A stretch of 23,110 nucleotides of DNA, from positions 1-23,110 of IMG/VR virus record IMGVR_UViG_3300036772_000564, one strand, 5' to 3'. This DNA comes from a virus. The translations under genes were made by a program, and so were the position numbers. This document shows, piece by piece, positions 3,263-22,729 of this stretch. Below the pieces are notes generated by a model that did not search any database, was not told where the DNA came from, and saw only the letters and a list, made by a program, of their open reading frames with translations. The number at the start of each line of letters is the position of its first letter. The stretch's first letter is position 1.

Positions 3263-3565
3263 CTACGGGCCACCGTTTTCCACCTTTTCAGGATGCTCAA
3301 CGATCCAGCGCACGCGGGCCGCCGCCTGCAATCTGTCGAGCGGGCCCGTGGCGGCACTGATGCCGCAGATTGCGCGCGAGAGTGCCGCGACACGCCGCAA
3401 GCGATCGATGTTCGCGCTGTCGAGTGAGGTCGTCGCATGCCCGGTGCTGATGGGCTGGTCCGTCTGCACGCGCACGACGAGCGATGGCGGTGTCGGCGCG
3501 ATGCCGTCGAGCGGAATTGCGTCGGGCAACGGGCTTTCACCGGGTTGCTGCGTCATGATGTCCAT
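3263..3565 (-). CDS. Small hypothetical protein downstream of the polyvalent protein
   Basis: 100 residues if started at the ATG at 3565, which shares its A with the TAA stop of the preceding 1042-residue gene (TAATG). That coupling is why I prefer this start over one 15 codons upstream. The N-terminal half is Pro/Thr-rich and looks disordered. The C-terminal half is a predicted amphipathic helix region (NIDRLRRVAALSRAICGI, then RLQAAARVRWIVEHPEKV). I do not recognise the family. Its stop lies about 60 bp before the terminator at 3177-3205, so it is the last gene of its transcript. Confidence 0.6.
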   Translation of the reverse strand: MDIMTQQPGESPLPDAIPLDGIAPTPPSLVVRVQTDQPISTGHATTSLDSANIDRLRRVAALSRAICGISAATGPLDRLQAAARVRWIVEHPEKVENGGP

Positions 3566-6500
3566 TACGATTTCATCCGCGCAGTGAAGGCGGTAACCGC
3601 TTCGCGCCACTTGTCGAGCATGGGCCCATCCTTCTCGTAAGACTCGAAGAGCGCGCCGATGCGACCGCTTTCGCCTCGCTCGCTGCCGTCGATCACCGAG
3701 TCCAGATACGCTTGATCGGCTTCGCGCTGAACGACTTCATTCGGCTTCTCGGCCTGCGCCTGCGCCGGATCGAGCGGGATATCGACGGCGGCTTGCTCCG
3801 GTACCGGCGGCGTATCGTGCAGCGGGTCGGACACTTGGGTAGTCGTTGCGTCGCCAGCCTTCGGCACATCCTTAACTGCCTGCGGCGCGTCGACCGCCGA
3901 AGCGTCGAGCGGCGTCGACGTGTCGCCGCTCACCGGCAGCGGGTCAGATTCCACGACCGACGGTGTTTCAGGAGCAGGCGGGGCAGCCGGTACCGGCTTG
4001 ATTTCGGGCGCGGGCTCGACGTCTACCACGACAATCGGCTCGTTCGGCTTGGTCACTAGCATTTCAGCGCCTACCTCGGCTTTCGCTTCGGCAAGAATCG
4101 GCTCGCTCTGGCCGTTCTCCTGAATCTGGATGAGACCGGCGGGAGCCGCGTTCGACTCAGTCGGCTCGATCAGCGCTACCTCTGTCGTCGCGGTGTCGAG
4201 CGCCGGCTCCGGTTTATCGATCGACGGCATGTCGGGCGCGGCCGGCTGCTCGGCAAGCGTGGCGCTAACCGCAGCCGCAGGCACCGGAACGCCACCGCTT
4301 GCGCCGGCAGCTTGCTCGGGCGTCACCGGCTCTGCGGGCGGGGTGAGAACGCCAGTCGGGTTGCCGGGCTCGACAAGCGCCGTATCGAGCGAGGACTTTT
4401 CGGGAACCGGCGTCGACGTCGGCGGGGTAGGCCAGTCGTTACCGTTCTCCTGACGCACCGCGACCGCGCCAGCAGCAACCTGCTCGGGGGCTTGGACTTC
4501 GAGCTCGTTCGCACGCTCGCCCGCCGGCGGGGTGTCGTGCAGCGGATCCGGAACTTGTTGGACAGCATCCATCGACGCTCGGGCGGCTTGCAGCACGGCG
4601 CACGTGTAGACATCGATGGCGCATTTCGCCTTGGCCTGAATTTCAGGGTTCTCCGGATGCGCGCGCATGATCGATTCAATGCGCTCCGCGAGGCCGTCCG
4701 TGAATGCATTGACCGTGCAGTCAATAACGGATTGGAGGTAGTTGAGATCGTAGGTCAGTTGCGATTCGACCGCGCGCGCACCGCCTTCAGCTTCTTCCGC
4801 AGCGACAGCCGGCGGGACGAGTCCATTCTCCTGAATCTGAATCACGACGCCAGTCTTGCCATCGTCGGACGGATCCATGCCGGCGACCGGCAGCGGCTGC
4901 ACGGGATCGGCGATCGGCGGTTCGACCGGCGCGGCAATGACTTCGGCGACTGGCTCATCGGGGGCATCGCCTAGCGCTGCAATCAGTTCTGGCGAGACCA
5001 CGGTCGGGTCGGCTGAAACCTGCGCTGCTACGACTACTGCCGCGATGACCTCTGCCGCATCGGGCGGAACCGCGACGTCAGCAGCAGTCTCGCTTGCCGC
5101 GACCGCTTCCGGCTCGAGCATTTCATCAAGATGCGTTGCCAGTTCTTCGACGCTGAGCGTCATATCGTTCGATACGCTGCCGACGATGCCTTCACCCATC
5201 TCGTTCAGGACGTTTAGCGTGAGCGAGAAATTCGTCATGTCCGCCAGCGGATTGACCATCACGCCGTACAGGGAGTTGTTGCGCGAGCGCGTAAGCGGCG
5301 CCCACATTTCACCGATCCAACCGCGACCGCGCAGAGCATTGCGCACCGCCAGCGCGCGCTGACGCGTGATCGCGACTGCCTGCACGTGATTCGCGGGATC
5401 GGCGGCGAATGCGGCGTAGTTCGAGTACGGCTTGATGCTCGCGAGGTCGTCGTCGCTCACACCGATCGCACTCAATTGCGCCGCTTCAGCCGGATCGAGT
5501 TTGTTCGCCGCAACCTTTGCCGCCTCCAGATCCAACGCGACGCGCTGCTCCTCCTGCTTGGCGGCGATCTGCGCCTGAACGTCGGCGAGTTCCATTTCCG
5601 CCGCGGTGATCTGTCCTTTCAGGGCTTCGATGTTCGCGAGCGTTTCAGCCTTCTTCGCGTTCTGCTTGGCGAAGGTCGGGCTGTTCTTGATCGCCAGTTG
5701 CATGATGCGCCGCGCGACGGTGCGGAGGTCGAGTTCGACGCCGCGCTCCGGTGCCGCCGCGATCGTGACGTCGAGCTTGTTGAGCATCCACTTCCACGAA
5801 ATGAGTTCGTCTTGGGGCTGCACGCGGATATTGCTCCCGCCCGTGTGGAAGTAGACCGTGATCGTTTGGCCATCGGCCAGCCGATAGATGACCGCGATGT
5901 TGATGACGCCGCGCACGCGGTACGGCCGCGTGATCGTGAAGCCGGTAACCTGCGGATCGCCGACGCGATTCATCATGTTCATCAGCAATTGCGCGCGCTT
6001 CGGCAACTGCTGATACGGCGAGGTCATGGCGTCGAGCGTCATCACCTCATCGGCATCCTGCAAAAGCTCACCTTCGGTCACTGCATCGAAGATCAGCCCG
6101 TCGGAGTCGCGCCGGCGGATCTGATACAGGACGGCATCGAACGTCAGGGCGCGCGGTGCATCGCCGGACCAAAGGATTTTTTCCACGGGTTTCTCCACTG
6201 CCGGCTTGGTCGAAGAGACCTGAAGCCATTGTTTGAATTGATCCAGCGACATTGCAACCATCGAGCCGAAGCCAGTCCAGTCGCGCGTGTACGAGTTCAT
6301 GTAAGCCGCGCGAGCGCTATCTGCATCGACGAATCCGAGCATGCACTTCGTTTCATCGAATTTCCCGCCGAACACCTGATTTATGATCCAAATGCGCTTT
6401 GACTCGGGGTAGGGCCCAATGAAAACATCGACCTCGTCGCCGTCCGCGCCAAGCGTGCCGCAGATGTACCCGTAGTGCGCTGCCATGACGTTCGCCCACT

Positions 6501-6693
6501 CGCGCCCATCAGACGTCTTGCCTTTTCGAATCGAGCCGCGCGGATTCTCGATGGCGATGTTGAGACCGTGCAGACGTACACGCCCCTTGCGATAGTTGCC
6601 TGCTTCGCATTGCGCAGGCGTCGGTAGGGCGTGGTTGTCGCGCCCAAAGGCGCCGTCATGCGCAGCGCGTTCAAGCGCGAGGAAGTCATCCAT
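3565..6693 (-). CDS. Polyvalent phage protein: InPase-like domain, DarA-like domain, long disordered repeat region
   Basis: 1042 residues. Residues about 23-158 match the phage inorganic-pyrophosphatase-like (InPase) domain of polyvalent proteins: GNYRKGRVRLHGL (32-44), GADGDEVDVFIGP (82-94), FDETKCMLGF (112-121), then an SLDQFKQWL ending. Residues about 180-345 carry a second domain with TRPYRVRGVINIAV, DGQTITVYFHTGG and DELISWKWMLNKLDVT, which recall the P1 DarA / defence-against-restriction N-terminal family (moderate confidence). A coiled coil (about 345-400) and a third globular part (405-525) follow. Residues about 530-990 are Ala/Pro/Val/Glu-rich with duplicated motifs: IQIQENG at 618 and 855 (degenerate RQENG near 748), DPLHDTPP at 716 and 956, and YLQSVID / YLDSVID at 652 and 996. 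Such proteins are often injected with the DNA. Here that role is inference. Confidence 0.8.
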   Translation of the reverse strand: MDDFLALERAAHDGAFGRDNHALPTPAQCEAGNYRKGRVRLHGLNIAIENPRGSIRKGKTSDGREWANVMAAHYGYICGTLGADGDEVDVFIGPYPESKRIWIINQVFGGKFDETKCMLGFVDADSARAAYMNSYTRDWTGFGSMVAMSLDQFKQWLQVSSTKPAVEKPVEKILWSGDAPRALTFDAVLYQIRRRDSDGLIFDAVTEGELLQDADEVMTLDAMTSPYQQLPKRAQLLMNMMNRVGDPQVTGFTITRPYRVRGVINIAVIYRLADGQTITVYFHTGGSNIRVQPQDELISWKWMLNKLDVTIAAAPERGVELDLRTVARRIMQLAIKNSPTFAKQNAKKAETLANIEALKGQITAAEMELADVQAQIAAKQEEQRVALDLEAAKVAANKLDPAEAAQLSAIGVSDDDLASIKPYSNYAAFAADPANHVQAVAITRQRALAVRNALRGRGWIGEMWAPLTRSRNNSLYGVMVNPLADMTNFSLTLNVLNEMGEGIVGSVSNDMTLSVEELATHLDEMLEPEAVAASETAADVAVPPDAAEVIAAVVVAAQVSADPTVVSPELIAALGDAPDEPVAEVIAAPVEPPIADPVQPLPVAGMDPSDDGKTGVVIQIQENGLVPPAVAAEEAEGGARAVESQLTYDLNYLQSVIDCTVNAFTDGLAERIESIMRAHPENPEIQAKAKCAIDVYTCAVLQAARASMDAVQQVPDPLHDTPPAGERANELEVQAPEQVAAGAVAVRQENGNDWPTPPTSTPVPEKSSLDTALVEPGNPTGVLTPPAEPVTPEQAAGASGGVPVPAAAVSATLAEQPAAPDMPSIDKPEPALDTATTEVALIEPTESNAAPAGLIQIQENGQSEPILAEAKAEVGAEMLVTKPNEPIVVVDVEPAPEIKPVPAAPPAPETPSVVESDPLPVSGDTSTPLDASAVDAPQAVKDVPKAGDATTTQVSDPLHDTPPVPEQAAVDIPLDPAQAQAEKPNEVVQREADQAYLDSVIDGSERGESGRIGALFESYEKDGPMLDKWREAVTAFTARMKS

Positions 6694-6846: not shown

Positions 6847-6878
6847 TTGCACAAGTAGCCTTTTATGGCTATTCTTAG
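6847..6878 (+). promoter_or_regulatory. Island A promoter/operator (imperfect palindrome)
   Basis: TTGCAC (6847-6852), a 17-bp spacer and TATTCT (6870-6875) form a sigma70-like promoter reading into the 74-residue membrane protein gene about 110 bp downstream. The spacer contains TAGCC and GGC in the same positions as the island B promoter at 11494-11526. The two 17-bp spacers agree at 12 positions, and the flank GGCTATTcTTAG matches GGCTATTATTAG there. The inverted repeat is degraded in its left arm here. This is the better-supported of the two observations because the same architecture appears twice, each time ahead of a plus-strand cargo unit. Confidence 0.6.
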
Positions 6879-6984
6879 TCGAGCAGGGTGAATCAGGGAC
6901 AAAGCAACGACCTGTCTGCCTCTACGCGGCCAACACCGGCCAAACGGCTGCTCTGCCGATACGGAGCGAAGAAAGGATTCTCCT

Positions 6985-7209
6985 ATGAACACGATGTTAT
7001 CCGCCGTAATACTCGCGCTCGCCGCTCTGCTCGTTGCTCTCTCGGCATTGTGCCGAAAGCGGGCCGAGCGGCTAATCCAAACAAGCGCTACGCGAACGCG
7101 CCGCGCCGCATGCGATCTCGTATCAATGGGATGCCAGATGCTCGGTCGAGTGAATAAACCCTCCGGGCAGGGGCACGGTTACGAGAACGTTCCGATAACC
7201 GTCCGGTGA
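6985..7209 (+). CDS. Small single-pass membrane protein (island A, first gene)
   Basis: 74 residues with a clear Shine-Dalgarno (AAAGGA, 7 nt before the ATG). Residues about 4-22 form a hydrophobic segment rich in Leu/Ala (LSAVILALAALLVALSAL), followed by CRKRAER and a basic, hydrophilic remainder ending in GQGHGYENVPITVR. This reads as an N-terminal membrane anchor with a cytoplasmic basic tail by the positive-inside rule. No lipobox is convincing. It is the first gene after the island A promoter and precedes the LprI-type gene. Holin-like or accessory envelope roles are possible but unsupported, and I do not recognise a family. Confidence 0.55.
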   Translation: MNTMLSAVILALAALLVALSALCRKRAERLIQTSATRTRRAACDLVSMGCQMLGRVNKPSGQGHGYENVPITVR

Positions 7210-7391
7210 ATGCCGCAGCCCACAAGCCAAGAGCCCGGCGTCAGACCGGGCAAACGACCCTGACCACACGCGAGAACCAATATGCATTTCCTGCCCGGCA
7301 TAGTATTTTTCTCCTTCTTTGCTATCCTTTGCGCGCGCGACTGCATGCGCACCGCGAGAAAACTAATGATCGAGAGAGACCCGCCAAATGA
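7206..7391 (+). CDS. Candidate 61-residue linker ORF, coupled at both ends (uncertain)
   Basis: Starts with GTG overlapping the stop of the preceding gene (GTGA) and ends with TGA overlapping the ATG of the LprI-type gene (ATGA), which is the coupling geometry of real operon genes. The product is basic with a short central hydrophobic run (HSIFLLLCYPL). It contains a 6-bp GC hairpin at 7233-7251 and competes with another ORF in a different frame (7282-7449). There is no ribosome-binding site for the GTG. At most one of these two ORFs is likely to be real. Confidence 0.25.
   Translation: MNAAAHKPRARRQTGQTTLTTRENQYAFPARHSIFLLLCYPLRARLHAHREKTNDRERPAK
7233..7251 (+). other. Intercistronic hairpin in island A
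   Basis: GCCCGG and CCGGGC pair across a 7-nt loop, about 24 bp after the stop of the 74-residue gene. No T-tract follows on either strand, so it is not a normal intrinsic terminator. It may set transcript stability or partial attenuation before the LprI-type gene. Confidence 0.4.
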
Positions 7392-7449
7392 AACCCCTGA
7401 TTATCGCCATTGCCGCATTCCTGACGGCAGGCCACGCGTTCGCCGCTAA
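7282..7449 (+). CDS. Candidate 55-residue membrane ORF overlapping the LprI-type gene start (uncertain)
   Basis: ATG at 7282, stop TAA at 7447-7449. The N-terminus reads MHFLPGIVFFSFFAILCARD, a convincing hydrophobic segment, then a basic stretch (CMRTARKLM) and a hydrophilic tail. The last 62 bases overlap the LprI-type gene in another frame. The ribosome-binding site is weak (GAGAA). The topology matches that of the upstream 74-residue protein, which makes it more plausible than a chance ORF, but the overlap with a signal-peptide-coding region weakens the call. Confidence 0.3.
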   Translation: MHFLPGIVFFSFFAILCARDCMRTARKLMIERDPPNETPDYRHCRIPDGRPRVRR

Positions 7450-8044
7450 CAACTGCGTGGAAGTGGGGCAGATGTACTTCAGCGCCGCGGCGCAACGTGA
7501 CAAGGCCGTTCCGCAAGACGAAGTCACGAAAAGCATCCGCAAGAATTTCGCCGGCCTGTCGAAGGAATACAACATCGACCTGGTCGTGACGGCAGCATTC
7601 AAGCACTTTGACGTCAGCCCGGAAACGCTCCAAGGGCTTGCGTCCGCCAAGTGCGAGGACGACCACGCGCAAGCAGTCGACGCGAACCCGGCCGCCGACG
7701 CTAAGAGCGCCGCACCGATCGTCGCCAGCGGATACAGCCATGCATTCGACGTCTGCGTGTCGAAATCGAATGGCGTCACCGTGGAAATGCTGGATTGCAT
7801 CGCGACGGAAACCGGCAAGCAGGGCGATCAACTAAACCGGACCTATCAGGCCTCCATGGCGATGCTGGCGCCCGACAGGCGCACCGATCTGCGGAGCGCT
7901 CAGCGCACGTGGATCAAGCAGCGCGACTCGAAATGCGCGCTCGACACAGAAGGCGGCACCGCGGCGCAGATCAATAGCGCGTCATGCGTGCTTGATATGA
8001 CTGCGGCGCGCGCGAAAGAACTGCTGGCCATGCGGGGCAAATAG
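7388..8044 (+). CDS. Secreted LprI-type lysozyme-inhibitor-like protein (DUF1311 domain)
   Basis: 218 residues. Signal peptide MKPLIIAIAAFLTAGHAFA, with likely cleavage after residue 19, so a periplasmic product. Residues about 116-213 fit the LprI/DUF1311 domain: YSHAFDVCVSKSNGVT, MLDCIATE, QLNRTYQASMAML, RRTDLRSAQRTWIKQRDSKC, then GGT and a final SCVLDMTAARAKEL, with cysteines 123, 137, 183 and 200 placed as in that family. Residues 20-90 are a separate N-terminal part with Cys23 and Cys89, which I do not recognise. LprI of Mycobacterium inhibits lysozyme, and many proteobacterial members are uncharacterised. In a phage it could protect the infected cell from incoming phage lysozymes or other muramidases (inference). 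GAGAGAGACC precedes the ATG, as in the island B barrel gene. Its 3' end converges with the minus-strand gene 14 bp away. Confidence 0.75.
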   Translation: MKPLIIAIAAFLTAGHAFAANNCVEVGQMYFSAAAQRDKAVPQDEVTKSIRKNFAGLSKEYNIDLVVTAAFKHFDVSPETLQGLASAKCEDDHAQAVDANPAADAKSAAPIVASGYSHAFDVCVSKSNGVTVEMLDCIATETGKQGDQLNRTYQASMAMLAPDRRTDLRSAQRTWIKQRDSKCALDTEGGTAAQINSASCVLDMTAARAKELLAMRGK

Positions 8045-8058
8045 CCCGTCGCCGGCAG

Positions 8059-8553
8059 TCATTCCCCGAACGCGAACACCATCAAATCACGCTTTTCGAT
8101 CCTGTACCGCCGCGCAAACGGCGGAACGTTCACGACCGCGTCGACCTCCATCACTTCGTAGGCTATTTTCACATCCGCTGATATCTCGATCGCGAGGACG
8201 TCGTGCTTGTTGACCACCTTGGCGTCTGGATCGGTCGGCGGGGTGAGGAATTCGACCATCACGTACATCTCCGCGGCGGACTGGTCGACACCATCGTCTC
8301 TATTGACCATCTGCGCCGAGACGAACGGCTCGCAGTTTAGGAGCTTCGCTGCACCTAGATCCTCATAGTCGACAGCCGCCTCGTCTTCGGAGTCGAGTAC
8401 CGTCATGCCGCCGAGCGTTGGATAACCCTCCGTCTCCGTATCCGATGCGCGCGTGACGACCTTGCGATAGACCTCGCAATCCATGTTGTTCGGATGTCGC
8501 AGCGTGACGTTGCGCGCCATCAGGTTCATTTGCTGCGGGACGGTACTCAGCAT
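8059..8553 (-). CDS. Hypothetical virion-cluster protein
   Basis: 164 residues from the ATG at 8553. This start, not one nine codons upstream, gives an 8-bp gap after the TAG of the zinc-motif gene and an AGGCG at a workable distance. The protein is acidic with many beta-prone segments (MYVMVEFLTPP, HDVLAIEISADVKIAYEVMEVDAVV, YRIEKRDLMVFAFGE). No domain is recognised. Tight packing with structural genes and this strand-rich composition suggest a neck, head-completion or minor structural role. That is inference from context only. Confidence 0.6.
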   Translation of the reverse strand: MLSTVPQQMNLMARNVTLRHPNNMDCEVYRKVVTRASDTETEGYPTLGGMTVLDSEDEAAVDYEDLGAAKLLNCEPFVSAQMVNRDDGVDQSAAEMYVMVEFLTPPTDPDAKVVNKHDVLAIEISADVKIAYEVMEVDAVVNVPPFARRYRIEKRDLMVFAFGE

Positions 8554-8560
8554 GGGGCGC

Positions 8561-9601
8561 CTATTTCGAAAGGGTCGCATGGATTTTGTCGTAGTCGGCT
8601 TGCGATAGCTGGCCGAGGTCTTTCAGCTTGCGCAGGTTCTTCAGCGCGTCGGCGCGGGCCTTGTCCGCTGTTTTCTTCGGCTGCTTTTCTTTCTCGGCGG
8701 TCCACTTCTTTTTGAGGCGCGCGCGGAGTGGATCCCAGTCAGCTTTGGGGCCGGGAAGCTTAACCTCGACGTCGCGCGCCGCTTTGCGCTGCCGGTTCGC
8801 AATATCGCGCGCCTCTTCCGTCGTAGTCGCCTCATTCTGGCGCGGATGTTCATGCTGATTGCGCGATACCATCCGCGCGATGACTTCGCGTATCGCCGAG
8901 CTTCGCTGGAATTCTGTGAGCGTCCGGAGGATGTGTTTGCATCCAAGGCCGGTCAGCAAGGGATTGCGCAGCTTCGGATAGACCGTTTCTGGAGGCCCTG
9001 CATTCACCCCGCCGACCGTGGCTACATAGGCAAAGGTGAAGCGCCAGGAACCGCAATCGCACCAAACCTGCAGTTTGCTGGACCGCTGCATCTTCGATGC
9101 AATAGCTTTTGGCGTGTCCGGTTGCGACGCCAGCGAAACGAAGTCCAGAATCTTGACGATCGTGTAGTGGCGTTTGACGTTCGATTCTTCGCTGGCATTC
9201 GTGATAAACCGCATCGTGCCGCGGTTCGATGAGGACGGAATGGCATAGTGGATCTGCTCGTTCGCGCGCTCGCGATCGGCGTCTCGCGAGAGGTTGATAA
9301 TCTGCTGCGCCGTCAGACCCTTTGAGTAGTGGCGCGCGACCGTCGCAACGTTGTCGCGGAATGCTGCTAGGTCATCGTCCGTGAGCGGCCGAATCTCTCC
9401 GCCCAACGTAGTCATCAGGACGCGCGAGGCGTCGTAATTCCCCCGAAGGTCGGAAGGCGTCAGCAGGTTCGGCGAGCGGCGCTTGATTGCGTCGTAGCGA
9501 GCGAACCGCGCAATCGCTTCTTTGATCGCCCCGCGGGTCTTGACTACGTGCGGGATATGACTCGCGCGCGCCTTGGGCCGCGACTTCGGTTTGACGGCCA
9601 C
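8561..9601 (-). CDS. SWIM-type zinc-motif structural protein
   Basis: 346 residues with a GTG start at 9601 and a GGGGG run just upstream. Residues 181-223 hold CDCGSWRFTFAYV ... PLLTGLGCKHILRTL, that is C181-x-C183 ... C221-x-H223. This is the SWIM-like CxC-(n)-CxH zinc ligand set, with the 'NPxxxGxCKH' context seen in a group of phage virion-associated proteins. The N-terminal 110 residues are helical and basic. Residues 285-346 are Lys/Arg-rich (RARLKKKWTAEKEKQPKK), likely nucleic-acid contacting or disordered. It lies between a 129-residue unknown and the 164-residue protein in one tight operon. The zinc motif is seen directly. Its role, DNA-contacting virion component or assembly factor, is inference. 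Confidence 0.65.
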   Translation of the reverse strand: MAVKPKSRPKARASHIPHVVKTRGAIKEAIARFARYDAIKRRSPNLLTPSDLRGNYDASRVLMTTLGGEIRPLTDDDLAAFRDNVATVARHYSKGLTAQQIINLSRDADRERANEQIHYAIPSSSNRGTMRFITNASEESNVKRHYTIVKILDFVSLASQPDTPKAIASKMQRSSKLQVWCDCGSWRFTFAYVATVGGVNAGPPETVYPKLRNPLLTGLGCKHILRTLTEFQRSSAIREVIARMVSRNQHEHPRQNEATTTEEARDIANRQRKAARDVEVKLPGPKADWDPLRARLKKKWTAEKEKQPKKTADKARADALKNLRKLKDLGQLSQADYDKIHATLSK

Positions 9602-9603
9602 GG

Positions 9604-9993
9604 CTAGCCCCCGCTCGTCAGCGCGATCGTCTGTCGAGTTACGAGGGCGACGTACTCGGGCGGGATGAAGTTAGCCGGCGTCGGCGTCCGGTCATCCGCA
9701 AGGTTCACGAACTTCGCCTGCGTCTTGAAACTCTTTAACGTGGCCGCGTCCGGAAGGATCAGCAGTTGTTCCGGCATTTCCTGCTCTACCGAATCGAGCC
9801 CGGCCGCCGCCATGATCGTCAAAAACTCATCGGGAATGCCGTAGACGCGCCGGCTAGCCAGTGTCATGTCCCATCGCTCATCAGGCTTCGTTTGATAGCT
9901 CTGCGTGACGGCCCAAGCCGGTGTCGTCAGGGCGTACTGGCGCACCAACTGATAGAAGATGGCGACGGCTGAGCTATTGGTTTCGATGGACAT
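9604..9993 (-). CDS. Hypothetical phage protein
   Basis: 129 residues from ATG 9993, read as MSIETNSSAVAIFYQLVRQYAL. The upstream TTG would add four residues and is less likely. It ends 2 bp before the GTG of the zinc-motif gene. It includes VTQSYQTKPDERWDMTLASRRVYGIPDEFLTIMAAAGLDSVEQEMPEQ in its middle (cited in part), a mix of helix and turn with no recognised motif. Such short proteins between tail-fibre and head genes in myoviruses are often baseplate or neck parts, but nothing in the sequence fixes that. Confidence 0.55.
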   Translation of the reverse strand: MSIETNSSAVAIFYQLVRQYALTTPAWAVTQSYQTKPDERWDMTLASRRVYGIPDEFLTIMAAAGLDSVEQEMPEQLLILPDAATLKSFKTQAKFVNLADDRTPTPANFIPPEYVALVTRQTIALTSGG

Positions 9994-10051
9994 GCAGGTT
10001 CGCAAAGGAATGTGAACCTATCATCGCGCTGAGCCATGCAACGAAGTCGTC

Positions 10052-10159
10052 TTACTTTCCGGCTTGAAGATATACAACGGCTTCGCCGGCACTGGCGGCG
10101 AGTCGAGCGATTGCCTCGAGCGTCTCCGCGTCAGTGCCGTTTGCTACTACGTGCTTCGT
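10052..10159 (-). CDS. 35-codon ORF with ACG at the expected start (remnant or non-AUG gene)
   Basis: The fibre gene ends AGC TAA, and the frame entered at the overlapping ACG (bases 10159-10157) is open for 35 codons to TAA at 10052-10054. The junction reads TAACG, where this operon elsewhere uses TAATG (21902-21898, 3567-3563). One T in place of C would give a normal coupled start. The product is protein-like: an acidic/Ala amphipathic helix (TDAETLEAIARLAASAGEAV) ending VVYLQAGK. GTGGA lies about 9 nt upstream. It may be a gene silenced by a start-codon change, a rare ACG start, or chance. Confidence 0.35.
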   Translation of the reverse strand, partial: TKHVVANGTDAETLEAIARLAASAGEAVVYLQAGK

Positions 10160-11115
10160 TAGCTGTATTCCACGACGATGATTGCGCCTGGCGCTCCGTG
10201 GCCGCCAACTTGGACTCCAACGGTTCCGCCAGCCAAGGCGCCACCGCCACCCGATCCGGGCGTCGTAGCGTCGGTACCCGGCCCGGAGTTTGTCGGTCTC
10301 CCATTGCCGCCGCCACCTAGAATCGATGAGCCGCCAGATCCCGAGAGGAAACTGGTAATGGACGTAGCAAAACCGGGCTGGCCATCCCCTCCCTTCGCGT
10401 TGAAGACGTTGCCACCTGTTGCATGCCCGCCCGCCAACGCCGTTGTCAGGTACGGCGGCGCGGCGGCGATACCGTTTCCGCCTGGCGCACCACCGCTCGC
10501 GACAAGCAGATTGCCGAATGATGTTTGGCCACCGGCATTGCCAGCTGTACCTCCTCCGCCAATCGTCATCGTTTGACCAGCAAAGCTCGAAGTCAGATAG
10601 CTGCGTGCGGCGCCGCCAGCCGAACCGCCCGAGGCAACGCTGATCTGGCCTGCTGCCGTTGTGGTCGTGTTTCCGCCGCCACCACCACCGCCAATCACCG
10701 TAACATCAATCGCGTTGGTGCCTGGCGTCGGAGTGTAAGCACCGTTTGCGGTGAATGTCCGTGTCGCGAGTACGCGCCCCGTGGCTTGTCCACGCTGCAT
10801 TGCGTGCTCGCTATGCGTGGCCGGCGCGACCTGTTGCGCGGCACCTGTGCAATCAAGCAGTACCCAGCACACGCTGCCTGAATTCAGCAACGGTCCGATA
10901 TACGAGACCAGCGTTACGTTGCCTCCGGCGACAATCTCATTGCCCTGCAAGGGTTGGCCACCGAGCCCAAAGACAGGACTTCCAACGAGTCCATCGGGCG
11001 CGTACGTAGCGTCTTCAGTATTGGTCTCGATAGCGGGAAATCTTTGAAAAATTCCGCTTGCGGTGGGCAACGCGGTCATTGGCAGCGAATTGAAAGATGT
11101 GTAGGCAGTCGTCAT
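10159..11115 (-). CDS. Second glycine-rich tail-fibre/adhesin protein
   Basis: 318 residues, with an ATG preceded by GGGA at 7 nt. Residues about 96-140 (VAPATHSEHAMQRGQATGR, then TPTPGTNAIDVTV) match the same region of the 538-residue fibre (IAPATQPSHAVQLGQMTGR). Residues 142-314 are a glycine-rich sandwich-like region that again parallels the first fibre, down to a shared EYS ending. Short glycine runs with serine/threonine-rich edges are typical of receptor-binding tips built from polyglycine helices, as known for the T-even-type S16 gp38 adhesin. The N-terminal 95 residues differ from the first fibre and lack its baseplate-attachment domain. I infer an adhesin tip or alternative receptor-binding protein. 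Confidence 0.7.
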   Translation of the reverse strand: MTTAYTSFNSLPMTALPTASGIFQRFPAIETNTEDATYAPDGLVGSPVFGLGGQPLQGNEIVAGGNVTLVSYIGPLLNSGSVCWVLLDCTGAAQQVAPATHSEHAMQRGQATGRVLATRTFTANGAYTPTPGTNAIDVTVIGGGGGGGNTTTTAAGQISVASGGSAGGAARSYLTSSFAGQTMTIGGGGTAGNAGGQTSFGNLLVASGGAPGGNGIAAAPPYLTTALAGGHATGGNVFNAKGGDGQPGFATSITSFLSGSGGSSILGGGGNGRPTNSGPGTDATTPGSGGGGALAGGTVGVQVGGHGAPGAIIVVEYS

Positions 11116-11129
11116 TTGTCATTCCCATG

Positions 11130-11163
11130 AATTAGAGAGCCAGCGCGGCTCCGCTGTCTAATT
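11130..11163. other. Stem-loop upstream of the second fibre gene
   Basis: AATTAGA (11130-11136) and TCTAATT (11157-11163) are exact inverted arms, with inner pairing GAGCC/GGCTC or CAGCG/CGCTG. On the minus strand it sits in the 5' leader of the fibre gene, 15 nt before its ATG. On the plus strand it would be a start-side or boundary structure. Its function is unknown. Confidence 0.4.
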
Positions 11164-11363
11164 TAGTGAACTCTTAAAATCTGACCAACCCGATTTTCCA
11201 TGCGGCAACGTCGCCTCGTATCCGCCGTTAGGCGGTTAGGAAAACGTGCATAGTCAAGAGCCGGCTGCAGCACCGATGTACTGCTTCATGATGAAGTCGT
11301 TCCGGGTTGGTAAGTAACTCAAGCAGCGCCCCATCAGCTATTCCTGATGGGGCGCCGCTTTTT
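11164..11363 (+). ncRNA. Candidate small RNA / untranslated transcript ending at a strong terminator
   Basis: About 200 bp with no credible ORF on either strand. It ends on the plus strand with the textbook terminator at 11326-11363 although no plus-strand gene precedes it for 3 kb. It holds short hairpins (CCGCC gtta GGCGG at 11222-11235; CTTCAT g ATGAAG around 11284-11296) and a TAAAAT at 11175-11180 that could be a -10, without a good -35. Alternatives are that the terminator stops antisense read-through from island A, or that it insulates island B. Confidence 0.25.
11326..11363 (+). terminator. Strong Rho-independent terminator, plus strand
   Basis: A perfect 12-bp stem (GCGCCCCATCAG with CTGATGGGGCGC), 6-nt loop CTATTC, then CGCTTTTTG. 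The T-tract supports the plus direction. On the minus strand the stem is followed by TGCTTGAG, which is weak. No plus-strand ORF ends upstream of it within this intergenic region. Confidence 0.85.
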
Positions 11364-11493
11364 GTCAAAAATATGAACCGGCCGGGCTATTCCTCGAAGC
11401 GTTATCGAGTGCTCCATGAAGCACGACGTTCCGTCGCCGGTATCTGCGTACCCCAGAAGCACGCGAGAGTTGAGCCTTTCCTCGAAGATTCCT

Positions 11494-11526
11494 TGCTAAT
11501 AATAGCCATATACGGCTATTATTAGC
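11494..11526 (+). promoter_or_regulatory. Island B promoter embedded in a perfect inverted repeat
   Basis: GCTAATAATAGCC (11495-11507), a 6-nt spacer and GGCTATTATTAGC (11514-11526) form a perfect 13-bp inverted repeat. The same bases contain a sigma70-like promoter: TTGCTA (11494-11499), exactly 17 bp, TATTAT (11517-11522). The lipoprotein ATG follows 48 bp after the -10, with AAGGA in front. A dyad covering both promoter elements is the classic layout for a dimeric repressor operator. The related element at 6847-6878 supports shared control. Confidence 0.7.
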
Positions 11527-11569: not shown

Positions 11570-12460
11570 ATGAAAACGTCTCAGGCAATACGTTACCTCG
11601 CAGTGTCTGCACTTGCAGCTTGCATGCTTGCTGGATGCGGTGGATCTGGAAAGGCATCGCCCAATGGATCGATCAAAGGAGCCTCACCGGTGGGCGGCGC
11701 ATCAGCGCCGGCCGCGGCATCTGAGTCGGTCGCGGATCCAGTGCCGTCGTCCGCGCCGACAGGTGATCCTGCGCCCGCATCAAAACCCGCGGCCTCGGCT
11801 CCCGACGCAGCGAGTGCGCCAACAACTTCGGAGCCGTCAGCCCCGGCAGCGGTGCCAGTGCTGATCGAGGTTCACGGTGACGACGCGATGCTCGGAATGA
11901 CGTCGCAAATGGGCATGGCGAGCCAACAGAGTGAGCCGGCGGACGTTCAAGCGATGTTGCGCGATCTACTGAGCGACCAGGCTATCACGGTCGACAACAG
12001 GGCCGAAGGCGGCACGGCATCGACGATCATCAACATGATGAATGGCGTCGATGGTGGAGGGGCGCCGTTCGCGCAGCGCGTGCTGACGTCCAAAGCACAG
12101 ATCGTTCTGGACAATCACGCGATCGAGGATGACCTGTCGCAATCGCTCGGGCCGTACGCGGACGCACTGATTGCGTGGGTTCAAGCAGTCCGCGCGGCAG
12201 GAAAGATTCCGGTTCTCGAAGAACCGAACCCGGTGTGCGATGCCGATCATCCGCATCTGGACAACTACGTTGCGACGATGGACGGTGTGGCTGAACAGTA
12301 CAACGTGCCGCTCGTCAAACAGTTCGATTACATCCAGACGCTACCGAACTGGCAGTCGCATTTCAACGCCTGCCTCTACCCGGATGAATGGATATTCCAG
12401 ATCAAGGCGCAACGCGAAGCTGCGATCCTCGCGCCGATCGTTCAATCGTTGATGAAATAA
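11570..12460 (+). CDS. Outer-membrane-type lipoprotein with a degenerate SGNH-hydrolase fold
   Basis: 296 residues, with SD AAGGA. Lipobox LAGC with Cys23 and Gly at +2 (no Asp, so outer-membrane sorting is expected). Residues 24-95 are a Ser/Ala/Pro linker. Residues 96-296 follow the SGNH/GDSL order, but key positions differ. Block I reads HGDDAML (Asp105 where Ser belongs). Block II keeps Gly (AEGGTAS, 146-151). Block III reads LDNHAIED (Glu186 in place of the Asn of G-x-N-D). Block V reads ACLYPDEW (Ala267 and Tyr270 in place of Asp and His of D-x-x-H-P). Family members with this ending continue similarly (FQIKAQ). So Ser, Asn, Asp and His all appear replaced while the scaffold is kept. 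I infer a pseudo-hydrolase, perhaps glycan-binding. SGNH domains are often fused to OafA-type acyltransferases, and one is encoded two genes downstream. Confidence 0.75.
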   Translation: MKTSQAIRYLAVSALAACMLAGCGGSGKASPNGSIKGASPVGGASAPAAASESVADPVPSSAPTGDPAPASKPAASAPDAASAPTTSEPSAPAAVPVLIEVHGDDAMLGMTSQMGMASQQSEPADVQAMLRDLLSDQAITVDNRAEGGTASTIINMMNGVDGGGAPFAQRVLTSKAQIVLDNHAIEDDLSQSLGPYADALIAWVQAVRAAGKIPVLEEPNPVCDADHPHLDNYVATMDGVAEQYNVPLVKQFDYIQTLPNWQSHFNACLYPDEWIFQIKAQREAAILAPIVQSLMK

Positions 12461-12466
12461 AACAGT

Positions 12467-12498
12467 GCGCCCACATCGGCTGTCACCGGTGCGGGCGC
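12467..12498 (+). other. Intercistronic hairpin after the lipoprotein gene
   Basis: GCGCCC-A-CATCGG pairs with CCGGTG-C-GGGCGC (one mismatch, one G-U) around a 6-nt loop, beginning 6 nt after the stop codon. No T-run follows, so full termination is unlikely. It may stabilise the upstream message or reduce downstream expression. Confidence 0.5.
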
Positions 12499-12533
12499 GG
12501 TGATCCACAGCAGTTACTTGAGAGAGACCGACC

Positions 12534-13241
12534 ATGAATCGGGTTCAGTATATCGCGGCTGCGGTCGCGGGGGTAGCACTCGCCTTTTCAACCGTAGCGC
12601 ACGCGGATAGCATCGCCGATTATGTCCACCCTGAAGCGGGAATCGGTGCATCCCTCTACAGCAAAGGCCCTGACGGCTTCTGGTTTCAGGAAGCCTTTCC
12701 GCACAAGATGCGCCTTGAGGTGCCTGCGTTCGAGGTTGGTCTGACTGGCCCGATCTATCAGGCGGCTAACTGGGGCATCGACTGGCATGCGGATTGGGCA
12801 TGGCTCGGTATGGTCAACACGGACGCCAAGGCCGTTCCGCTCGATGCTAATTACAACGCGCATACGAAGGGTTGCAACGGGCAATGCCTGCCTCTCGCTG
12901 ACTATCGCGGAAGCGGTCATGCACAGGCGTTTCTGCTCGCGCTGGAGCCTCACTACGACATCGGCAAATGGCGCCTCGGCGTCGAGGCTGGACCGACTCT
13001 GTATCACGCCACATGGACCGAGGATGTCAGCAACATTCAGTACACGGCAGGCGCCGATCCAATCAGCCTACGTCTAGCCAGCACAGACGGCTGGCGCTTC
13101 GGATGGGTCATCGGTGCGTCAGTCTCGCGCGGGCCGTTCTCGCTGGTCTATCAGCACTTCCTCATGAAGGCTAGCAGCTCGAACCCGGCGCCTCCGATCT
13201 GGCATTCGGTGGATTTGCTGATCGCGCGATACAGGTTCTAA
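12534..13241 (+). CDS. Secreted protein, probable outer-membrane beta-barrel
   Basis: 235 residues. The signal peptide ends at AHA (about residue 25). The mature part has repeated short strands of alternating aromatic and polar residues (GFWFQEAF, FEVGLTGPIY, WGIDWHADWAWLGMV, AFLLALEPHYDI, WRLGVEAGPTLYHATW, WRFGWVIGASV, FSLVYQHFLM, SVDLLIARYRF) and ends in Phe after YR, the usual C-terminal signal for barrel insertion. About 8-10 strands would suit a small barrel. A Cys pair lies in one loop (GCNGQCL). It sits between the SGNH-type lipoprotein and the acyltransferase genes and has GAGAGAGACC upstream. Family unknown. Roles such as receptor masking or lipid A/O-antigen processing are possible but not shown. 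Confidence 0.7.
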   Translation: MNRVQYIAAAVAGVALAFSTVAHADSIADYVHPEAGIGASLYSKGPDGFWFQEAFPHKMRLEVPAFEVGLTGPIYQAANWGIDWHADWAWLGMVNTDAKAVPLDANYNAHTKGCNGQCLPLADYRGSGHAQAFLLALEPHYDIGKWRLGVEAGPTLYHATWTEDVSNIQYTAGADPISLRLASTDGWRFGWVIGASVSRGPFSLVYQHFLMKASSSNPAPPIWHSVDLLIARYRF

Positions 13242-13338
13242 ACCGATCGTCAAAGCCATTACCAATGAAGACTGACGTGCTTATGGTTAAATACCCGCCG
13301 TAGACCATACCGCCCACACAACCGGCATTCGATTTCGC
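13242..13338 (+). other. Gap between barrel and acyltransferase genes; no clear signal
   Basis: 97 bp without an ORF. TATGGT ... ACCATA is a short inverted repeat around 13281-13308. I see no convincing promoter or ribosome-binding site for the next gene. Composition is lower in GC than the phage genes nearby (by eye). Confidence 0.4.
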
Positions 13339-14541
13339 ATGCACCTTACAGAAATAACAATTGTTGCAGTTTTTGCCACAGGAATAATTCTGGCAATGCC
13401 GCTTGGGTCGATTTTCAAGATCAAGCTCCGGGTCGACCGTTACGCAAACATTGACGGAATGCGCGCCGTAGCCGCGTTGCTGGTGGTGTCCTCGCACTAT
13501 TCGAGGAACGTATTGATTATGTTCGGCGAGACCACCGGGCCGTCTCTTGTAACGGCGATGGGAGATATCGGCGTACAGATATTCTTCTGCATCACGGGCT
13601 TCCTGTTCACGCGCAAGGCACTCGCCGGCCCGATCGACGTGCCGCAGTTCATTTCATCGCGCGTGCGCCGCATCGCCCCTCTTTATCTGGTTTGCATGAC
13701 GCTAGGCTTGATGCTTGCCAGTTACACCGCGCTCCAATTGAACTACCACCAGAGTTTTCATCTGCTTGACGTGCTGTCGGCGTACGGATCGGGGTTTTTA
13801 GGGGACCCGATAGGGAAGTTTTCGGGAGTGCCGTTGGCGAGCATTATCGGACAGGTCTGGACGCTGCATTGGGAATGGCTCTTTTACCTGTGCGTGCCAT
13901 TCCTTGCTGCGATATTGGCACGCCCGAAGTGGCTTGCAATGCTGGCGCTCTTCGTCATCCTTTGCTCGATCTATCGGGAAAAACTGGTGACTCAGCAGAT
14001 CTGGATGTTCTTCATTCCGGGTGCAGTGACGGCCCTGTTTGCCGAGCGAGTGAGGATCGGGACGGCCTGGCAGGTGCTGCTCCTCGTGCTTGGAATACTC
14101 ACTTTTGGCATCTCCATTTTCTCGAATCTGGCCTCTCACGGCTCCGAGGAATTCGTCCTGTGCGTGGTCGGATTCCCTGCGCTCGTGTTCGGCCACAAGG
14201 CGATGTTATCCACCAAACCTCTGCGCATTCTCGGCGAGGTGAGCTACAGCATCTACCTGATCCATTTGTTCCTGCCGGCTGTGTTCTGGATCATCGTGAT
14301 GCATGTCGCGCCTCTCGATTTCGCTTCGCCCCTGTCGAGATTGCACCTTGCCATCTTGATGGCGCCGTGGCTTTTCCCAATCTGCTTTTTGTCTTATGCA
14401 CTAATCGAGCGCCCATTTATGGCAAATCGGCAGAAAGAGGTGGCCCGACCATTCTTTACGCCGGATTCGACGGGGCAGCGTAGTTCTTTCCGTCAAATTC
14501 ATACCCCGGACCAACCGGTGAGCCGACTGGCAGAAGATTGA
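13339..14541 (+). CDS. OafA/AT3-type membrane O-acyltransferase
   Basis: 400 residues with about ten hydrophobic segments. AT3 (acyltransferase 3) landmarks in order: NIDGMRAVAALLVVSSHYS (37-55, including conserved Arg42 and His53), GVQIFFCITGFLF (78-90), SSRVRRIAP (106-114), VWTLHWEWLFYL (173-184), GEVSYSIYLIHLF (299-311) and LIERPF near 355-360. This family transfers acetyl or other acyl groups to surface polysaccharides such as O-antigen. Phage-borne members change the host serotype (established for Shigella and Salmonella converting phages). It lacks the C-terminal SGNH domain of some homologues. Residues about 373-400 are encoded in bases that overlap the minus-strand 14456-14641 gene. 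No ribosome-binding site precedes ATG 13339. Met20 (13396) with GGAA upstream is an alternative start. Confidence 0.85.
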   Translation: MHLTEITIVAVFATGIILAMPLGSIFKIKLRVDRYANIDGMRAVAALLVVSSHYSRNVLIMFGETTGPSLVTAMGDIGVQIFFCITGFLFTRKALAGPIDVPQFISSRVRRIAPLYLVCMTLGLMLASYTALQLNYHQSFHLLDVLSAYGSGFLGDPIGKFSGVPLASIIGQVWTLHWEWLFYLCVPFLAAILARPKWLAMLALFVILCSIYREKLVTQQIWMFFIPGAVTALFAERVRIGTAWQVLLLVLGILTFGISIFSNLASHGSEEFVLCVVGFPALVFGHKAMLSTKPLRILGEVSYSIYLIHLFLPAVFWIIVMHVAPLDFASPLSRLHLAILMAPWLFPICFLSYALIERPFMANRQKEVARPFFTPDSTGQRSSFRQIHTPDQPVSRLAED

Positions 14542-22205: not shown

Positions 22206-22729
22206 ACGCCCCAAAGCTCCAAATGGTAGTGCAGCCATCCGACTACGCACGCAAAGCCGTTGTGCGCTGGCCGCTGCGGTATCGCCCTCGCTGAGTGGCA
22301 CGAACGATATGCCCGTTATCCCCGCGCCTAAGCGCAGCGCCGCTCAACTCGGCGAACGACAGATATGTGTGTATGGCTAGTGTGCGAGGAGGGATGACGG
22401 CAGCGGACGAGCGTTTTCCGTTGGGAGAATAGAAAAGGGCGCGCCCACGTCATCATCGGGCGCGCCCTTCGTTGCTGCTGTGAATCCCCACCTTTGGACT
22501 TACGTTGGCGCGCAGGTGGGTGCCACGATCTTGCTGGATACGGTCGATCGGTTACCGTCGGAGTGGCGCCATTTACCCGTGGCGCGACCGCTCCAGTGGT
22601 TTCGCGCAATAGGGCTATGTCAGGAGTGAATCGCCAATCGCGAAGGCCGCTGCGGCGGCCATTCGGAATGAGATGCCGGGCCGTTGATATGGCCCAGCAT
22701 CGGACGTCAACTACTGCAGCAACGCGCGC
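22206..22729. other. Intergenic region without a gene: terminator, hairpins, 5' leader
   Basis: About 520 bp with no credible ORF on either strand. It contains the strong terminator at 22424-22469, two GC hairpins nearer the right-hand gene (GGCCGC/GCGGCC 22645-22660; GGGCC/GGCCC 22678-22695), and the leader of the small gene starting at 22205. I do not see a convincing consensus promoter for that operon. Confidence 0.5.
22424..22469 (-). terminator. Strong Rho-independent terminator, minus strand
   Basis: Perfect 12-bp arms, AAGGGCGCGCCC (22435-22446) and GGGCGCGCCCTT (22458-22469), with an 11-nt loop. On the minus strand the hairpin is followed by TTTTCTATTCT. On the plus strand only TTCGTTG follows. 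Each arm also contains a GGCGCGCC palindrome. It ends transcription from the right-hand gene. Confidence 0.85.

Follow-up and report, generated by a model that had tools for sequence, protein, structure and literature searches.

A symmetric dyad at two cargo promoters of a P1-like phage fragment, putatively a dispersed operator of a phage regulator

Both plus-strand cargo units of the phage fragment studied here start at a sigma70-type promoter that overlaps the same symmetric dyad, TAGCC-N6-GGCTA. From comparison of sequences, we regard it as slightly favored (probability about 0.55) that these two elements (sites 1 and 2; Table 1) are putative operators of a dimeric Cro/CI-type regulator of the phage itself, dispersed to cargo promoters. 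The cargo genes would then probably be wired into the lysis-lysogeny switch of the phage instead of being independent add-ons. A dispersed, symmetric site that lies at promoters of cargo and is common to the regulator region of an unrelated phage is new; no paper on such a site was found in the open-licence literature.

The window, i.e., the whole stretch of DNA analyzed, is a full IMG/VR record of 23,110 b with structural genes and cargo, covering a fragment of a P1-like phage. Among its proteins, the portal matches that of P1 (Prt) and that of Xanthomonas phage Rb1 (58%), a tail protein (8561-9601) matches gp25 of P1, and a homologue of P1 gene 26 lies at 9604-10005. The structural genes are carried by the minus strand, and the two plus-strand cargo units break into them. 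Unit 1 (6985-8044) consists of a 74-aa ORF followed by an LprI gene, and unit 2 (11570-14541) of genes for an SGNH-like lipoprotein, a 235-aa exported protein and an acyltransferase; that the two sites head these units agrees with the original prediction. The match of the lipoprotein to Lipase_GDSL_2 is weak and under the Pfam cut-off. The 235-aa ORF had been called a barrel gene; it is indeed present on the plus strand, but that family assignment finds no counterpart in Pfam or PHROG. Neither the gp25-like tail protein nor the SGNH lipoprotein has a close homologue in IMG/VR, and Rfam and tRNA scans gave no match. Elsewhere in the window, a 1042-aa protein (3565-6693, minus strand) combines an InPase-like domain (PF18823) and a DarA_N antirestriction domain (PF18788) in one chain, and at 14456-14541 the 3' end of the acyltransferase gene overlaps, convergently, the 3' end of a minus-strand 61-aa ORF.

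Table 1. Features of the window that bear on the dyad and the cargo units
Feature	Position	Strand	Basis
Site 1, sigma70-like promoter TTGCAC-17-TATTCT of LprI unit	6847-6875	+	Sequence; TTGCAC-17-TATTAT kept in relative L014
Operator-like dyad TAGCC-TTTTAT-GGCTA within site 1	6856-6871	.	Core match
74-aa ORF, leads cargo unit 1	6985-7209	+	ORF only, without family match
LprI-domain protein, predicted export signal, cargo unit 1	7388-8044	+	PF07007, E 1.6e-20
Strong intrinsic-terminator-like hairpin 5' of site 2	11326-11355	+	12-pair stem, then T5
Site 2, sigma70-like promoter TTGCTA-18-TATTAT of cargo unit 2	11493-11522	+	Promoter scan
Perfect 13+13 inverted repeat GCTAATAATAGCC-N6-GGCTATTATTAGC; core TAGCC-ATATAC-GGCTA at 11503-11518	11495-11526	.	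Repeat search
SGNH/GDSL-like lipoprotein, cargo unit 2	11570-12460	+	phrog_8011, 6.6e-31; lipobox LAGC by inspection
235-aa exported protein, family unknown, cargo unit 2	12534-13241	+	0 Pfam/PHROG matches
Membrane O-acyltransferase, cargo unit 2	13339-14541	+	PF01757, 3.9e-27; phrog_3333 O-acetyltransferase
Site 3, related element TAGCCATACACACATAT, right arm degenerate, 5' of phosphatase/baseplate operon	22363-22379	-	Y/R-identical to L014 LprI promoter element

The dyad in the window and in a close relative

The exact core TAGCC-N6-GGCTA occurs twice in the window, each time directly 5' of a plus-strand cargo unit, where 100 dinucleotide shuffles give an expectation of 0.00. The full 13+13 dyad is found in one place, even with three mismatches allowed. 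In this G+C-rich window, the core with at most one mismatch gives two matches against four for the reversed control and, therefore, it is the exact matches, and where they lie, that make it significant. At both sites the dyad is centered at about -18.5 and spans approximately -26 to -11, and it thus covers the spacer and the -10 element, as would fit a repressor that blocks the promoter. Read on the minus strand, site 2 has a TATTAT but no -35 element, so that a bidirectional role is only possible.

The original prediction had described the two sites as sharing one unusual palindromic promoter. The promoter of site 1 and the similarity of the spacers (12 of 17 positions, counted by eye) were recovered as described, whereas the spacer of site 2 measures 18 rather than 17 nt, with a -35 hexamer that starts at 11493 rather than 11494. 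The perfect inverted repeat at site 2 is real, but it does not enclose the whole promoter, the first two T of the -35 hexamer lying outside, and its 13+13 arms are not found at site 1; what both sites have in common is the TAGCC-N6-GGCTA core. Nor is the promoter itself unusual: the sigma70-like match is plain, with one found between 5000 and 14000 vs. 3.2 in shuffled sequences. A further motif, GAGAGAGACC, said to recur before the LprI and "barrel" genes, does so at 7372-7381 and 12520-12529, but it is better considered ordinary ribosome-binding context, since copies with at most one mismatch are expected 1.3 times and both lie at the position of a ribosome-binding site.

A third, related element (site 3, 22379-22363 on the minus strand) had been overlooked. 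Because it precedes the baseplate operon, the element is not exclusive to cargo. A strong hairpin with a 12-bp G+C-rich stem and a T-rich tail (22435-22469, minus strand) lies 56 nt before it, and together the two look like an operon boundary ahead of the phosphatase/baseplate genes. In a close relative of the phage (L014; 77-80% DNA identity to the window) an LprI-like gene, cut by the contig end, stands behind TTGCACGACTAGCCATATACGCATATTAT. The -35 element, the 17-nt spacer, TAGCC at the matching place and ATATACG are all kept in this promoter, and its right arm reads GCATA. Both degenerate copies, i.e., that of L014 and site 3, thus retain TAGCCATAYAC and the -10 side and have lost the right arm, which argues against an operator.

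Occurrence in other phages and in host genomes

A more distant P1-like relative, an 82.6-kb prophage of Undibacterium crateris with a portal 60% identical to that of the window, has copies of the element in promoters lying between Rha and a gene for LprI, ahead of a small ORF adjoining the portal gene, and ahead of g67 and g80. Weaker copies, part of which could be terminators, occur at a Holliday-junction resolvase gene, a helicase-loader operon, an XRE regulator gene, an exonuclease/RecT operon (where the promoter copy matches at two mismatches) and an HTH_17 gene. The sites are dispersed over about ten places in this prophage and two in the window. With at most one mismatch the core is found 10 times in the prophage vs. 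1.5 expected from first-order Markov simulations, among them copies next to the XRE regulator gene, Rha and LprI; the two-mismatch set (41 vs. 24) is only mildly enriched. In the 4.3-Mb U. crateris assembly all five strict matches (at four places) fall inside the phage, which makes up 1.9% of the DNA, and the reversed control gives none.

The dyad is not general among phages with related portals, since 49 such relatives give 2 exact copies and 15 with at most one mismatch, vs. 1 and 33 in shuffled DNA. Among 24 further portal relatives the strict motif was encountered only in L014 and the Undibacterium phage. One of the records surveyed, titled as an Alistipes senegalensis MAG (L073, JAMPER010000001.1), has a portal of the proteobacterial P1-like type, which may point to a mislabelled or mixed bin. 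In a pattern scan of 393 host-family genomes, matches outside the Undibacterium phage were about as frequent as those of the reversed control; four of the host loci were inspected and appear unrelated. The exact TAATAGCC-N6-GGCTATTA has seven matches in IMG/VR, which are mostly terminator-like, bidirectional-looking hairpins. On inspection, the LprI loci of G010, G007 and G016 have no such dyad. In the G010 phage record the LprI gene lies directly 3' of a gene for a CI-type repressor with HTH_3 and peptidase S24 domains (L157, 401-1773), a gene order which suggests that LprI is expressed in the lysogen there and which we count against an operator model. The LprI arrangement of G007 (L160) may be like that of G010.

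The link to a Cro/CI-type regulator comes from a scan with the pattern TAGCC-N-TATA-N-GGCTATWAT, which matched six loci besides the Undibacterium one. By rough estimate this yield is near chance, so the scan by itself proves nothing; the weight of one of the six, the 61.6-kb phage L113, lies in the clustering of its dyads. An identical 20-mer (TAGCCATATACGGCTATTAT) occurs in the regulatory region of L113, and five dyads surround a divergent HTH/XRE gene pair: those at 2584 and 2607 lie between the HTH gene and the XRE gene, and those at 3363, 3386, and 3407, spaced 23 and 21 bp apart, lie over a TTGACA..TATAAT early promoter 5' of a RecT operon. The core with at most one mismatch is found five times vs. 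0.12 expected, with four of the five in the regulatory region and one at 4848. The XRE protein of L113 is 38% identical over 69 aa to that of the Undibacterium prophage (g98), the gene order is similar, and the recognition helices (GQSSIGRA and GQTTIGRI) are alike. The XRE gene occupies 2638-3156 of L113, its divergent partner encodes a 73-aa HTH protein, and g98 lies at 13889-14281 of locus L110. A search of IMG/VR for relatives of the L113 repressor returned L113 itself and the Undibacterium protein only. Since L113 has no homologue of the window portal, the regulator module seems to be passed from one family of phages to another.

Two Pseudomonas phages, 8P (with an annotated Cro/CI-type repressor) and USP_18, possess a homologous module in which the recognition helix differs. 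Dyads of the TAGCC-N6-GGCTA type are absent from both, and another repeated dyad, TCCGTAT-CGGA, was seen by eye in the two corresponding places. These dyads lie around the HTH pair at 1380-1450 and 2290-2370 of locus L186 and likewise in L187, the loci of the two phages, and they are probably the operators of 8P and USP_18 themselves. Because these phages pair another helix with another dyad, site and recognition helix seem to change together, as would fit a regulator and its operator.

Interpretation and alternative explanations

If sites 1 and 2 are operators, a symmetric TAGCC-N6-GGCTA element would overlap their promoters, and a bound dimer would most likely obstruct RNA polymerase at the spacer and -10 element. 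Dispersal of such operators over the genome would tie the cargo to the switch of regulatory, recombination, and replication genes, and loss of the regulator would release it. We infer from these comparisons that the phage encodes such a regulator beyond the 23,110-b record, that it binds at sites 1 and 2, and in which direction it acts; any choice between the two HTH proteins as the binding one, and an off state of the cargo in the prophage, would be suggestions of the same standing. The shared dimeric regulator of the original prediction is thus strengthened by comparison, in that the dyad recurs at promoters of a relative, occurs only in the phage part of the genome of its host and, in another phage, flanks the genes of regulators. 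The regulon, however, would not be limited to the two cargo islands, as in relatives it includes regulatory, recombination, and replication promoters, and a related element precedes the baseplate operon of the window.

A different role of the element, as a promoter for lytic or late transcription that depends on a phage activator similar to Lpa of P1, would have cargo and structural operons fire together, with TAGCC (at approximately -26 to -22) and the -10 element as the conserved parts. The position of site 3 before the baseplate operon and the parts retained in the degenerate copies agree with this, as does the divergent late pair of P1, which has one common -22 box at gene 26, a gene with a homologue in the window. 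However, the boxes of P1 (AAGTNACTT) have a different sequence, Lpa (PF25716) was found in none of the 26 relatives searched (the window itself being only a fragment), the dyads of relatives cluster at regulator, recombination, and replication genes, and sites 1 and 2 possess TTGC -35 elements. A P1-type late promoter is, therefore, unsupported, and we consider an activator-read promoter in general unlikely. Morons, the cargo genes of phages, are usually assumed to have independent promoters, and sites 1 and 2 might simply be two instances of one constitutive promoter carried along with the cargo, and the dyad would have no dedicated regulator. The cargo units are typical morons, the spacers are alike and the element is associated with promoters in all close cases, but the dyads at non-cargo genes of the Undibacterium phage, the five copies around the regulator pair of L113 and the presence of two exact cores, which is not a chance expectation, make this rather improbable.

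Morons are also commonly under host control, and the cargo encodes envelope proteins, as would suit a dyad used by a host regulator so that the cargo follows host physiology; the phage-borne location of all strict matches in the Undibacterium assembly and the results for the host-family genomes render this very unlikely. Least probable of all seems a terminator or RNA/DNA hairpin at site 2 in place of an operator. Single-stranded, its repeat has a stable fold (z -4.95), and the exact TAATAGCC-N6-GGCTATTA matches elsewhere resemble bidirectional terminators. However, no T-tract follows the repeat, which ends 43 nt 5' of a start codon, and in folding site 1 shows no advantage over shuffled sequences (z -1.34). 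The G+C-rich stem followed by a T run of an intrinsic terminator is seen at neither site, the terminator scan lists none there, and a separate terminator-like hairpin is present upstream.

Returning to the putative operators, P1-like phages of Betaproteobacteria might have brought envelope cargo that they acquired laterally under the control of their immunity regulator, through symmetric operators dispersed over the genome, and the sharing of the operator with an unrelated phage could tentatively be attributed to exchange of the regulator module. If true, the two phages are predicted to respond to each other's repressor and the cargo to switch along with the lysis-lysogeny decision. With operator sites shared with a phage regulator, the timing of LprI-type proteins, lipoproteins, and O-acyltransferases would be set by the switch of the phage. 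Together, TAGCC-N6-GGCTA and the recognition helix GQ[ST][ST]IGR provide a sequence handle on an immunity specificity which may not be limited to one phage family.

Comparison with known systems

The late promoters of P1, which carry AAGTNACTT and depend on Lpa, resemble the sites of the window in having an inverted repeat just 5' of the -10 element, and in the divergent pair at gene 26. However, the 9-bp repeat bound by Lpa is centered at -22, whereas the dyad of the window has another sequence and is centered at about -18.5. In mycobacteriophage L5, a single repressor has numerous stoperators scattered over the genome (PMC6550527), to which the sites discussed here are similar, but stoperators are asymmetric and mostly lie outside promoters, whereas the sites of the window lie within them. 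Nearer in phage type is the C1 repressor of P1, with 22 dispersed operators of an asymmetric 17-bp consensus, ATTGCTCTAATAAATTT (PMC8546580). In both cases widely dispersed repressor sites would overlap promoters of a temperate P1-type phage. However, the C1 consensus does not occur at the sites of the window, which are symmetric, lie at cargo promoters and would have a regulator encoded outside the record. With the lambda-type Cro/CI sets, as in L113 and Pseudomonas phage 8P, the likeness lies in the symmetric dyads, which there form tandem sets at two promoters next to a divergent pair of HTH genes. Multiple copies of the present dyad around a Cro/CI-type gene are seen in L113, i.e., in another phage, where they are confined to the regulatory region, whereas in the window and the Undibacterium prophage single copies lie far off, at cargo and other genes.
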